NCBI GenBank assembly: GCA_947258435.1
Contig: CAMYID010000013.1
Span: forward strand, 62,001 to 126,000
Direction: 5' to 3'
Source: an uncultured Alphaproteobacteria bacterium
Lineage (GTDB): Bacteria; Pseudomonadota; Alphaproteobacteria; UBA11222
Length of the DNA stretch: 64,000 nt
Shown here: positions 45,514 to 51,016 of the stretch, one piece after another
How positions within the stretch are numbered: the stretch's first letter is position 1
How the letters are laid out: every line of letters starts with the position of its first letter
The notes under the pieces: generated by a model
What the model was told of the DNA's origin: nothing
Databases searched by the model: none
The model's input: only the letters and a program-made list of their open reading frames with translations
Translations under genes and position numbers: made by a program

Positions 45514-46470
45514 TCAGTTAAAGGAAGGTGCGAAAACCGGGGCCTCGCGCATCAGCGTGATCGAAATGCGGCGGTTGGCCGCGTTGCCCGGTTCATCGGG
45601 GAAAAGCGGGTCGGTATCCGCCTTGCCTACAACGGAAAAGAAGCGGCTCTGACTGACGCCGGATTGTTGCAGAATACGCCGGCTGGCCGCCGCACGGTTG
45701 GACGACAGTTCCCAATTGCCGAATCCGTCGCTCGCCTGAAATGGCTGGGAGTCGGTGTGTCCTGATACGGCGACCCGGTTGGGCAGCTTGTTGATGACCT
45801 TGGTGATTTCACGGAACATCGCACGGGTGCGGGGGTAGGGGTCCGCCGTGCCGGGTTTGAACATGGCGCGGCCCAACTGGTCAACCAGCTGAATGCGCAT
45901 GCCATCCGATGTATGGTCAATGATAAGCTGGCCCGAAAGTTCCGAAAGCTCCTCGATCTCGCTTATGGCCTGCTTCAGCTCCTCTTCGGCATCTTCAAAG
46001 ATGCGCCGTTCCCGGTCGGCGATGGCCTTGTTGATCGTCTCATTGGTGACGGTGTCGGTCGTCTGATCCTGCGCGACTTCGGCGAAGTCAGAATCGAACG
46101 AAGGGGGCCCTGTCGGTCGGCTGTCGGTATCGGCGTCGGCGTCGGGAGACGGTGGTTCGGGTGCAGCAAGCTGAAAGGTTACCGTGGGTGAGCCTTCGCC
46201 GATTCCCTGTCCGCTGCTCAGGCTGGCACCGGCCAGCATCCCGTTGCCGCCGCTTGTCGACTGGCTGACCTGCGCGAAGGTGAAATATTCAGCAAGCCCT
46301 TCTTTCTGGGCCTTGCTGGTCGAGCTTAACAGCCATAGCAAGAGAAAGAATGCCATCATTGCGGTCACGAAATCGGCATAGGCAACTTTCCAGGCACCGC
46401 CATGGTGGCCGCCGCCGCTTTTCTTGATTTTCTTGATGATTATCGGGCGTTCGTTTGCATTATCCGCCAT
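45514..46470 (-). CDS. motB: Flagellar motor stator protein MotB
   Basis: 318 residues. Single N-terminal membrane helix with the proton-accepting aspartate D33 in WKVAYADFVTAMMAFFLLLWLL, preceded by the basic PIIIKKIKKSGGGHHGG typical of alphaproteobacterial MotB. A plug/linker rich in Pro, Asp and Ser (about 60-150) leads to a C-terminal OmpA-like peptidoglycan-binding domain: VAVSGHTDSQPF, NWELSSNRAAASRRIL, GKADTDPLFPDEPGNAANRRISITL. The motA gene is not adjacent. It suggests a flagellated organism. Confidence 0.94.
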   Translation of the reverse strand: MADNANERPIIIKKIKKSGGGHHGGAWKVAYADFVTAMMAFFLLLWLLSSTSKAQKEGLAEYFTFAQVSQSTSGGNGMLAGASLSSGQGIGEGSPTVTFQLAAPEPPSPDADADTDSRPTGPPSFDSDFAEVAQDQTTDTVTNETINKAIADRERRIFEDAEEELKQAISEIEELSELSGQLIIDHTSDGMRIQLVDQLGRAMFKPGTADPYPRTRAMFREITKVINKLPNRVAVSGHTDSQPFQASDGFGNWELSSNRAAASRRILQQSGVSQSRFFSVVGKADTDPLFPDEPGNAANRRISITLMREAPVFAPSFN

Positions 46471-48609: not shown

Positions 48610-49317
48610 ATGATCGCCGGGTTGGTCGAAGCTTTCAACGAAACAATGCCCGTACTGTCAAAGGGCGGCCCGATTGTCGGGATATTGATATTATTGTCGA
48701 TTATCGCATTTGCGATCATCGCGATAAAGATCGCGCAATTCTACAAGTCGGGCGTGTATGGCGGGGCGCATCGGCGGGAAGCCTATGTCGGGCCCGCCTT
48801 GCAGGCGATCGAAAAGGGCGAACTGAATAGCGCTCGCGAATTACTGCAGCGCGCACAGGGGCCGATCCCGCGGCTGATAGAGGCGGGAATTGCGGTTAAA
48901 TGGGACAGAAATGTCCGTGAGCAGGATGTCGAGGATGAAATCGCGCGCATTGGCGGCAATCTGCTGACCCGATTGCAGTCTTATTTCCGCTGGCTTGAGG
49001 TGATTGGCAATATCGCACCCTTGCTTGGCCTGCTTGGTACGGTGATCGGTATGATCGGCGCGTTTCAGGCGTTGGAGGCGGCGGGCAGTAAAGTCGATCC
49101 CTCGATTCTGTCCGGCGGAATCTGGATTGCCTTGCTGACGACCGCGGTCGGTCTGACCGTTGCGATCCCGGCTGTTACTGCGCTTAATCTGTTTGAAAGC
49201 CGGCTTGATGTGTTCCGGCAGGAAATGCGCGATGTGTCCGCGCGGCTGCTTGCAGCGCTGCATACCCAGCAGGATCAGGCCCTGGCGGTCGAACCGGCCA
49301 AAGACGCCGCGGAGTAG
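48610..49317 (+). CDS. exbB: ExbB/TolQ/MotA-family proton channel protein
   Basis: 235 residues, three transmembrane helices (about 20-42, 131-155, 168-195) and a cytoplasmic helical domain between the first two. The channel-lining segments are IAPLLGLLGTVIGMIGAF (Thr144) and ALLTTAVGLTVAIPAVTALN (Thr177/178), as in ExbB. The glutamate found in E. coli ExbB just before ALIATAIGL (E176) is Ile173 here by alignment. First of four genes that form an ExbB-ExbD-ExbD-TonB-like operon. It probably uses the proton gradient to move the TonB-like protein. Confidence 0.92.
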   Translation: MIAGLVEAFNETMPVLSKGGPIVGILILLSIIAFAIIAIKIAQFYKSGVYGGAHRREAYVGPALQAIEKGELNSARELLQRAQGPIPRLIEAGIAVKWDRNVREQDVEDEIARIGGNLLTRLQSYFRWLEVIGNIAPLLGLLGTVIGMIGAFQALEAAGSKVDPSILSGGIWIALLTTAVGLTVAIPAVTALNLFESRLDVFRQEMRDVSARLLAALHTQQDQALAVEPAKDAAE

Positions 49318-49322
49318 CGCCC

Positions 49323-49763
49323 TTGGCCCTGTTTGATGAACCGATACGCCATTCGCGTCGGCTGTCACTGACGCCATTGATCGATGTCGTGTTTCTTTTG
49401 CTGATCTTCTTTATGTTGGTCAGCACATTCAGCGACACACAGATCCTGCGTTTTGTCACGCCGGCGGGTGAACGGCAATCGACCGAACAGCAGTTCGAAC
49501 TCATTCCGGTCTTACTGGCGGCTGACGGTACGATTTCAATCGACGGGCGGACAATTGCCCCCGAATTGCTCAAGCTCGAAATGGAAAAGACCGCTGCCGC
49601 GGCCGATGAGGTCACGGTCGTGATGATTGCTGAACCCGGCGCCAAGACACAACTTCTGATCATGGCTGTAGAAGCCGCACGGGGTGCGGGCATCGTGAAT
49701 ATCGCCATGAAGAAGGCGGCGGATGCGCGATCGCTGCTGAAAGGAAAGGGCGGCGCGCCATGA
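49323..49763 (+). CDS. exbD: ExbD/TolR-family protein, catalytic-type
   Basis: 146 residues: one membrane helix (about 14-36) and a periplasmic domain. It carries the essential proton-binding aspartate D21 in SLTPLIDVVFLLLIFFML. The start is TTG at 49323 (no alternative before the conserved helix), six bases after the exbB stop. The periplasmic part (ADGTISIDGRTIAPELLKLEM ... VVMIAEPGAKTQLLIMAVEAARGAGIVNIAM) is of ordinary ExbD type. The stop overlaps the start of the second ExbD by 4 bases. Confidence 0.92.
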   Translation: MALFDEPIRHSRRLSLTPLIDVVFLLLIFFMLVSTFSDTQILRFVTPAGERQSTEQQFELIPVLLAADGTISIDGRTIAPELLKLEMEKTAAAADEVTVVMIAEPGAKTQLLIMAVEAARGAGIVNIAMKKAADARSLLKGKGGAP

Positions 49764-50161
49764 TCGAGTTCAAGGATCAACAGAAACGCCGGACATATGA
49801 GGCGGTTGTGCCGCTTATCAATGTCATCTTTCTGCTGCTGATCTTTTTCCTGCTTGCGGGAACGATGCAGCAAGCGGAGCCGGTGGATGTGACCTTGCCC
49901 ACAGGTGAGCTTGATGAGATCAAGCCGCCGGAGGCCGTGACGATCTATGTCGCCGAAGACGGGTTCGTTTATATCTTCGATCAGATTATCGAAGCACGAT
50001 TTGCCCCTTTCATGCTGCGCAGCTTTTTTCTGAAAGAAGGGCACAGATCGGTTCAGGTCAAGGCGGATCAGAATGCGGATGCGGAAACGATCATCGATCT
50101 GATGGCGCAGATGCGCGAAATCGATGTTGAGGAAATCAGTATTATTACTGAACGGAAGTAA
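49760..50161 (+). CDS. exbD: ExbD/TolR-family protein lacking the essential Asp (Asn21)
   Basis: 133 residues. The membrane helix reads VVPLINVIFLLLIFFLLAG: the position of the indispensable aspartate is Asn21 (codon AAT), one of the few differences in an otherwise canonical helix. The periplasmic domain (EAVTIYVAEDGFVYIFDQIIEA ... VQVKADQNADAETIIDLMAQMREIDVEEISIITE) is intact, so the protein should fold and pair with ExbB and ExbD1. As structural models place two ExbD helices inside a pentameric ExbB, I infer a D/N heterodimer with a single protonatable site. It overlaps the preceding gene by 4 bp and is 6 bp before the TonB-like gene. Confidence 0.9.
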   Translation: MIEFKDQQKRRTYEAVVPLINVIFLLLIFFLLAGTMQQAEPVDVTLPTGELDEIKPPEAVTIYVAEDGFVYIFDQIIEARFAPFMLRSFFLKEGHRSVQVKADQNADAETIIDLMAQMREIDVEEISIITERK

Positions 50162-50167
50162 GAAGCT

Positions 50168-51016
50168 GTGCCCGGTACGACCCTGGAAAATCCGACAAGA
50201 AAACATTTTACGGCGTTTTTGCTGTTGTCTGTGCTGCTGCACGCGCTGTTTGCGATCTGGTTTGCCTTGCGGGGGCAGGATATGTTCCTGGGCGGCCCGC
50301 TGGGCATTGGCGGTGGCACTGATATCGTCTTCCAGCTTGCAGCCGGCGACCCGCTTCTGGATGTGCCGACAGATTATGACTTTGAAGTTGAGTCTGAACT
50401 GAATGTTCAGGAGGAAATTCCTGAAGAAGTCGTCGTCGAGAAAGTGGTTGAAGTTCCCGTGATCGAGGAAGCCGCAATTCCGGTGGCGCCGGCAAAGGAA
50501 GTGCCACCGGAGAAACCTGCAAAACCTGAACCGCAGGAGGCGGCCGCACCAAAGAAAAGCGGTCAGCAAGGCGATGCGGATGAAAGCAAGAAAAACCGGC
50601 CCGGCACGGCCTTGACGGGACAGGAAATTTCAGCCGCATTTTCCGGCCGGACACTCAATCTGACGGCGGGGCGGCTTGATATTCCCTCAGGCAATCGCCT
50701 GATGGATGTTAAAATGCATCTCTATCCCGATGGAACTTCCCGCGTTCAGCTTGTTTATTTCCACTACAAGACCTTCCACCGGGAGGAAACCTCCACACGC
50801 CGGTTCAAGGGCGACGGAAAATGGTGGATCGAGGGGAATAAATTCTGCCATCGCGCGATGGTCGTGGACTATGGCGCGATCAATTGTTATGAGCTGAACC
50901 AGCGCTCAAACGGCGATTTGGAGCTTTATTTCGAGGATTGCGGCGGAAAATCCTCGGCAATTTGTTCAAATGGCAGACTGGGTGCCAAAGGCCGTTTGCA
51001 AAGCGGCATAAACTAG
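50168..51016 (+). CDS. TonB-like energy transducer with a non-canonical C-terminal domain
   Basis: 282 residues. The N-terminal membrane helix (about 14-34) contains S21-x3-H25 (LLLSVLLHALFAIWF), the SxxxH motif by which TonB engages ExbB-ExbD. Residues 75-145 are a Pro/Glu/Val/Lys-rich periplasmic linker, as in TonB. The C-terminal domain (about 148-282) is not a TonB or TolA domain: SGRTLNLTAG, MHLYPDGTSRVQLVY, RRFKGDGKWWIEGNKFC, INCYELNQRSNGDLELYFEDC, with four cysteines (C227, C240, C258, C266) likely in two disulfides. The strand-rich pattern with a G-W-C and CY motif recalls small DUF995-like periplasmic proteins. GTG start six bases after the second exbD. I call it TonB-like only by position and N-terminus. 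Confidence 0.75.
   Translation: MPGTTLENPTRKHFTAFLLLSVLLHALFAIWFALRGQDMFLGGPLGIGGGTDIVFQLAAGDPLLDVPTDYDFEVESELNVQEEIPEEVVVEKVVEVPVIEEAAIPVAPAKEVPPEKPAKPEPQEAAAPKKSGQQGDADESKKNRPGTALTGQEISAAFSGRTLNLTAGRLDIPSGNRLMDVKMHLYPDGTSRVQLVYFHYKTFHREETSTRRFKGDGKWWIEGNKFCHRAMVVDYGAINCYELNQRSNGDLELYFEDCGGKSSAICSNGRLGAKGRLQSGIN

Follow-up and report, generated by a model that had tools for sequence, protein, structure and literature searches.

A four-gene Ton-type operon

The window (the entire stretch of DNA analysed here, 64,000 nucleotides from an alphaproteobacterial assembly of 2.88 Mb) carries on its forward strand, at positions 48610-51016, four tightly packed genes that encode an ExbB-type protein, two consecutive ExbD-type proteins, hereinafter ExbD1 and ExbD2, and a TonB-like protein (Table 1). 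ExbB, ExbD1 and ExbD2 each score above their own Pfam cut-offs, and the start of ExbD2 overlaps the stop of ExbD1 by 4 bases; the open reading frames and the profile matches (MotA_ExbB, ExbD and ExbD) thus bear out the preliminary description of this DNA, which had listed four tightly spaced or overlapping genes in this order. The SxxxH motif, the Pro/Glu/Lys linker and the four-cysteine C-terminal domain that it assigned to the TonB-like protein are present as well. The TonB-like protein matched no family in searches with the Pfam and NCBIfam profiles, and the sub-threshold Pfam hits to DUF1285, TraQ and DUF3116 were discarded as noise. An open frame of 461 codons runs antisense to the operon at window positions 49184-50569 (-) and bears no sign of being a gene.

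Table 1. Genes and sequence features of the operon (window coordinates)
Feature	Position	Strand	Evidence
ExbB/TolQ-type pentamer subunit, 235 aa	48610..49317	+	Pfam MotA_ExbB 2e-29
ExbD1, 146 aa, TTG start, proton-carrying Asp D21 in TPLIDVVFLLL	49323..49763	+	Pfam ExbD 4.6e-19
Codon GAT, Asp21 of ExbD1	49383..49385	+	sequence
ExbD2, 133 aa, Asn21 in place of Asp (VPLINVIFLLL)	49760..50161	+	Pfam ExbD 7.4e-18
Codon AAT, Asn21 of ExbD2	49820..49822	+	sequence
TonB-like protein, 282 aa, GTG start	50168..51016	+	sequence, homologue alignment
S21xxxH25 in the transmembrane helix of the TonB-like protein (TonB/TolA SHLS-type motif)	50228..50242	+	alignment
D-box-like segment IVFQLAA, residues 53-59 of the TonB-like protein	50324..50344	+	alignment
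Pro/Glu/Lys-rich periplasmic linker, residues 61-130 of the TonB-like protein	50348..50557	+	sequence
C-terminal domain, residues 131-282 of the TonB-like protein: predicted helix and eight-stranded antiparallel barrel, lipocalin/calycin-like	50558..51013	+	AlphaFold, Foldseek, alignment

The search for relatives of the TonB-like protein covered 60 related genomes, 84,980 named genomes and 385 genomes of the class; strong matches came from the family of the window itself, from Parvibaculaceae/Rhodobiaceae (for example, Tepidicaulis marinus, L030) and from one further family, and none was found in viral contigs. The order ExbB, ExbD, ExbD, TonB-like gene recurs in 16 distinct loci, among which ExbB is sometimes cut by a contig end or split by an assembly frameshift, and the TonB-like proteins of the loci that were compared directly are 37-90% identical. 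The retention of the gene order in 16 loci, together with the invariance of the four cysteines in 19 diverged homologues (see below), indicates that the operon is more than a chance arrangement. The window and Parvibaculaceae have a syntenic neighbourhood at a single chromosomal place: one flank carries MotB-like, RDD and flavin-reductase-like genes, and the other flank carries a 3-hydroxyisobutyrate-dehydrogenase-like gene, a decarboxylase and HemB (the names are partly read from the sequence). These operons, hereinafter called calycin-type after the predicted fold of the C-terminal domain, represent an old, vertically inherited chromosomal locus.

Several other genes around these loci and elsewhere in the genome deserve mention. 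A protein of the penicillin-amidase family (PF01804, 3e-216 in L030) is encoded directly downstream of, and convergent to, the operon at L030:8831-11278 (-), and a gene of this family occupies the same place in L031-L034, L036 and L105 (Parvibaculaceae/Rhodobiaceae) and is absent there in the window; it is a possible functional neighbour of the operon. The MotB-like gene of the window, at 45514-46470 (-), has no adjoining MotA, whereas in Parvibaculaceae a MotA-like gene adjoins it. Another MotA/ExbB-family protein, 292 aa long, is encoded on contig 23 of the genome, and the fifth member of this family in the genome lies at G000 contig 4:8975-9307 (-) (L133), on a contig with no ExbD-family match.

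The engine and the anchor of the arm

ExbB of the window keeps the conserved pore threonine motifs GLLGTV and LLTTA in the alignment and has Ile at the position of E. coli E176. This position was considered as a partner that might co-vary with the Asn of ExbD2; it is occupied by E, V, I, A or Q in both kinds of operon, so no link exists.

In the TonB-like protein, S21 and H25 of the membrane helix are invariant in six aligned homologues (alignment A1); in E. coli TonB, the SxxxH motif contacts ExbB (PMC12215075). A strand with the conserved pattern (I/L)xFQLAAG, in which F55, L57 and G60 are invariant, displays the same alternation of hydrophobic and polar residues as the D-box, the strand through which TonB docks on ExbD (PMC10907165), and on the strength of this pattern the IVFQLAA segment is a putative, D-box-like site of ExbD docking. 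We class the engine with the motors of the Ton type and regard the arm as TonB-like, though not as a TonB by the defining C-terminal domain.

A predicted lipocalin-like barrel at the end of the arm

The preliminary description held that the C-terminal domain is unlike that of TonB, and this holds: none of the Pfam and NCBIfam profiles detected PF03544/TonB_C in it, and AlphaFold predicts a different fold rather than the standard TonB domain that the preliminary description had named as a refuting outcome. For residues 131-282, two AlphaFold2 runs, one on 10 sequences (model m515078965f41, pLDDT 83.5) and one on 19 (model m02b987b17b9b, pLDDT 84.0), gave a helix and an eight-stranded barrel with pTM 0.79, and the five models of the second run agree with one another (pLDDT 82.5-84.0). 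The Foldseek matches are mostly lipocalin-like barrels, with designed barrels also present and no TonB_C-like fold among the matches listed; the TM-scores are moderate, about 0.4-0.6, and the best E-value, 5e-3, falls short of 1e-3. By TM-score, the closest solved structure is the periplasmic domain of ToxS (8u2f; TMq 0.58, TMt 0.63), and the envelope-stress sensor NlpE was matched as well; a library of viral folds yielded only weak lipocalin-like matches. The domain is predicted with good confidence as a lipocalin-like (calycin) barrel, though at these scores the assignment is one of fold class rather than of family. The Pfam lipocalin profile matched 0 of the 19 members of the domain, and sequence searches against the solved structures of the PDB produced no match. 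Cysteines 227, 240, 258 and 266 are invariant in 19 sequences with identity down to 22% (alignment A4), a pattern consistent with the formation of two disulfides. The GxW..C..CY pattern is suggestive of DUF995 (PF06191), which was found neither in the C-terminal domain nor in 58 genomes; as the controls gave no hit either, DUF995 stays a possible candidate.

The same plan of SxxxH, linker and barrel was detected in TonB-like proteins of other alphaproteobacteria that have no adjoining ExbB or ExbD (L023, L109, L110 and L022), and similar proteins are encoded in L051 and L052, where the neighbourhoods were seen over short loci only. The domain also has weaker matches, in small secreted proteins (127-155 aa) and at the C-terminal end of a metacaspase-like protein; in all of these, it belongs to no Pfam or NCBIfam family. 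The small predicted secreted proteins are alphaproteobacterial (L120, L122, L123, L124 and L125) and share the G-x-W...C...C pattern; they make up a large undescribed family. The metacaspase-like protein (Peptidase_C14; L121:1414-3312 (-)), which ends in this kind of domain, comes from outside Alphaproteobacteria. The presence of the domain both in small secreted proteins and in the arms suggests that a common secreted domain was recruited as the end of a Ton arm, as appears to be the case here.

The likeness to ToxS brings up the explanation that the protein is a sensor rather than a force-transmitting arm, such that the barrel binds a periplasmic ligand and signals through ExbB and ExbD, by analogy with the part that ToxS and VtrC play for the regulators they serve. 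The periplasmic domain of ToxS, the barrel of which builds a bile-binding pocket (PMC10624426), provides the closest fold overlap, and the match to NlpE points the same way; the linker, the SxxxH motif and the D-box-like strand, however, are features of an arm that transmits force, and the operon includes no regulator gene, so we regard a sensory role as quite improbable.

Receptors of the same genome

Elsewhere in the genome, contig 1 carries a second operon with ExbB, ExbD with Asp, ExbD with Asn and the start of a TonB that is cut by the contig end; it adjoins the genes of two TonB-dependent receptors as well as what, by their sequences, look like heme-uptake genes (HmuS, T, U and an ATPase). 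The genome encodes three receptor barrels, and no other TonB_C protein was found in the assembly, in which the TonB of the heme operon is truncated. It might be supposed from these observations that the barrel has replaced TonB_C and nevertheless serves the ordinary TonB-dependent receptors, all of them or a subset, and the barrel could still bind such a receptor in a new way. Yet the barrel is similar to TonB_C neither in sequence nor in fold, two of the three receptors adjoin their own, heme-linked ExbB-ExbD-ExbD-TonB operon, and no receptor gene lies beside the calycin-type operons compared; in five calycin-type loci, BLAST with the proteins of the heme operon detected neither a TonB-dependent receptor nor a heme gene nearby. 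Service to ordinary receptors accordingly strikes us as unlikely. The exchange of the domain, along with the lack of receptor genes beside the loci searched, makes it more likely that the motor of the window does not engage a TonB-dependent receptor, as the preliminary description had supposed.

The Asp/Asn pair of ExbD proteins

The codons GAT and AAT place Asp21 of ExbD1 and Asn21 of ExbD2 in one alignment column of the pore helix, in agreement with the earlier reading of an Asn at the identical helix position. In the calycin-type operons, which were collected via the TonB-like protein, so that the residue count is free of bias towards Asn, ExbD1 has Asp in all 16, and ExbD2 has Asn in 15 and Ser in one (Lake Baikal assembly L027/L018) but never Asp; a sporadic substitution in one strain, which the preliminary description had named as the result that would speak against its reading, was not what these operons showed. 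The remainder of the ExbD2 pore-helix motif is kept, with P18, L19, I20, F24, L25, F29 and F30 invariant (alignment A3).

The pair extends far beyond these operons. Across the class, calycin-type operons included, 60 distinct tandem ExbD pairs comprised 55 D/N, one D/S and four D/D, the proportions outside the calycin-type operons being biased towards Asn by the use of an N-type ExbD2 profile (A3), and D/N pairs were found in 26 alphaproteobacterial families. A strict DNA pattern for PxINVVF-type helices matched 37 of 289 alphaproteobacterial genomes, with 0 matches of the reversed-pattern control. In a phylum-wide sample, nearly all matches to the strict Asn pore-helix pattern fell within Alphaproteobacteria; the two outside are at G555:C30:132012-132050 and G641:C3:251975-252013. 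On a tree of 99 ExbD sequences, built from few columns and with many open forks, the sequences split into a D side and an N side, and the D/N label changes 2 times compared to a mean of 32.8 after shuffling, which implies that the D/N pair is an old, maintained duplication; the N-type ExbD is, on this evidence, an old paralogue whose position in the order has been maintained over a long time. Of the D/D pairs, three group in a starred clade of their own on the tree. In L088:1504-2386, both tandem ExbDs have Asp, and the second groups with the N-type L092, possibly a reversion to Asp. An apparent natural fusion of ExbD1 and ExbD2 in L080 has a first domain without its C-terminal end, in a frameshift-like manner, and was left out as evidence of pairing.

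One part of the preliminary description is not supported, namely, that the D/N pair marks a specialised machine: the same pair accompanies TonBs of the TonB_C type across Alphaproteobacteria, including the heme-linked operon of this very genome. PF03544 TonB_C was present in all seven TonBs tested from other tandem-ExbD operons (6/6 from D/N operons and the one from a D/D operon). The pair is thus independent of the odd C-terminus, as ordinary ExbB-ExbD-ExbD-TonB operons contain it, too. The D/N variant of the engine is widespread among Alphaproteobacteria, and the arm is the special part.

The two ExbDs need not form a mixed dimer. Conceivably, ExbD1 homodimers constitute the working motor, and ExbD2 homodimers with Asn belong to another ExbB complex, itself non-conducting, with a role in anchoring, regulating or docking the arm. 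ExbD2 does have a conserved periplasmic domain of its own, and a review of 5:2 motors raises the same question of dimers for AglQ and AglS (PMC9389320). The strict pairing, the invariant order with Asp first and Asn second, and the translational overlap in many lineages suggest instead a 1:1 partner, and the two-fold D-box site that the ExbD dimer offers (PMC12215075) would seem to be best used by a matched pair; separate homodimers are, in our estimation, rather doubtful.

A proposed mechanism

Taken together, we consider it fairly probable that the operon encodes a proton-driven Ton-type motor with a D/N ExbD core and an arm that docks via the SxxxH motif and the D-box-like strand, ends in a disulfide-stabilised lipocalin-like barrel and is aimed at a partner other than a TonB box. 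Under this scheme, the ExbB pentamer would hold a pair of ExbD1 (Asp) and ExbD2 (Asn), which would leave a single core helix of the two to carry the proton. The TonB-like protein would dock on ExbB via the SxxxH helix and on the ExbD pair via the D-box-like strand, its Pro/Glu/Lys linker would cross the periplasm, and the barrel, probably stabilised by disulfides, would end the arm in place of TonB_C. The arm would pass force or position to the barrel, and the motor would push or pull the barrel against a periplasmic or outer-membrane partner other than the TonB box, or against a hydrophobic ligand. A D/N heterodimer would have a single working carboxylate and a D-box site without two-fold symmetry, so that the arm could dock one way only.

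In the current model of 5:2 motors, two core aspartates exchange protonation at each 36-degree step (PMC9389320, PMC12905483). The inactivity of E. coli ExbD(D25N) (PMC11658791) counts against a motor with one Asp, an objection tempered by the fact that D25N is the sole ExbD there. The D/N pair, maintained in 26 families, would make the rule of two-Asp alternation directly testable: a working D/N heterodimer, if true, either needs a different cycle or shows that one Asp suffices. The exchange of the TonB end for a lipocalin-like barrel, if true, would mean that Ton motors have been re-aimed at a target other than TonB-dependent receptors, a type of functional change seldom seen in so thoroughly studied a machine. 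A broader and frankly speculative extension, for which we see only a slim chance, is that many Alphaproteobacteria run Ton motors with one Asp per core dimer (ExbD1 with D, ExbD2 with N), so that two-site 36-degree alternation is not obligatory, and that in one lineage such a motor powers a calycin barrel by which a hydrophobic ligand, such as a lipid, is carried or extracted across the periplasm, in effect a proton-powered lipocalin shuttle.

Comparison with known systems

Searches of the open-access literature yielded no description of a D/N ExbD pair or of a TonB that ends in a calycin barrel, and an earlier account in subscription papers is possible. The periplasmic domains of ToxS and VtrC, as well as lipocalins, have an eight-stranded lipocalin-like barrel with moderate fold overlap with the domain of the window, but no sequence similarity to it was found, and ToxS and VtrC serve as anchored sensors for transcription factors rather than as the ends of Ton-type arms. 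The Myxococcus gliding motor AglR-AglQ-AglS likewise combines one subunit of the MotA/ExbB type with two of the ExbD/TolR type; the trio has no TonB-like arm, however, and the conserved Asp is reportedly present in AglQ as well as in AglS (PMC9389320). The Ton operons of Xanthomonas and Sphingobium also contain tandem ExbD1 and ExbD2 genes, and the Asp is retained in the two ExbDs of Sphingobium SYK-6 (PMC8599685); three of the D/D pairs of our survey form their separate clade, unlike the D/N pair of the window. TonB-ExbB-ExbD of E. coli shares the pentamer-dimer motor family, the SxxxH helix, the D-box-type strand and the Pro-rich linker (PMC12215075, PMC10907165) but differs in having one ExbD, with Asp only, and TonB_C.

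Among the closest systems are the alphaproteobacterial D/N operons ExbB-ExbD-ExbD-TonB, such as the heme-linked one on G000 contig 1, which have the same gene order and the same succession of Asp-first and Asn-second ExbDs, share the ExbB signature GGIWxALLTTA with the operon of the window and, in most of their arms, contain the SxxxH motif and the D-box-like strand as well. Unlike the heme-linked operon, that of the window has no heme or receptor genes nearby, and whereas the arm of the ordinary D/N operons ends in TonB_C in all cases tested, the arm described here ends in a predicted calycin-like barrel.
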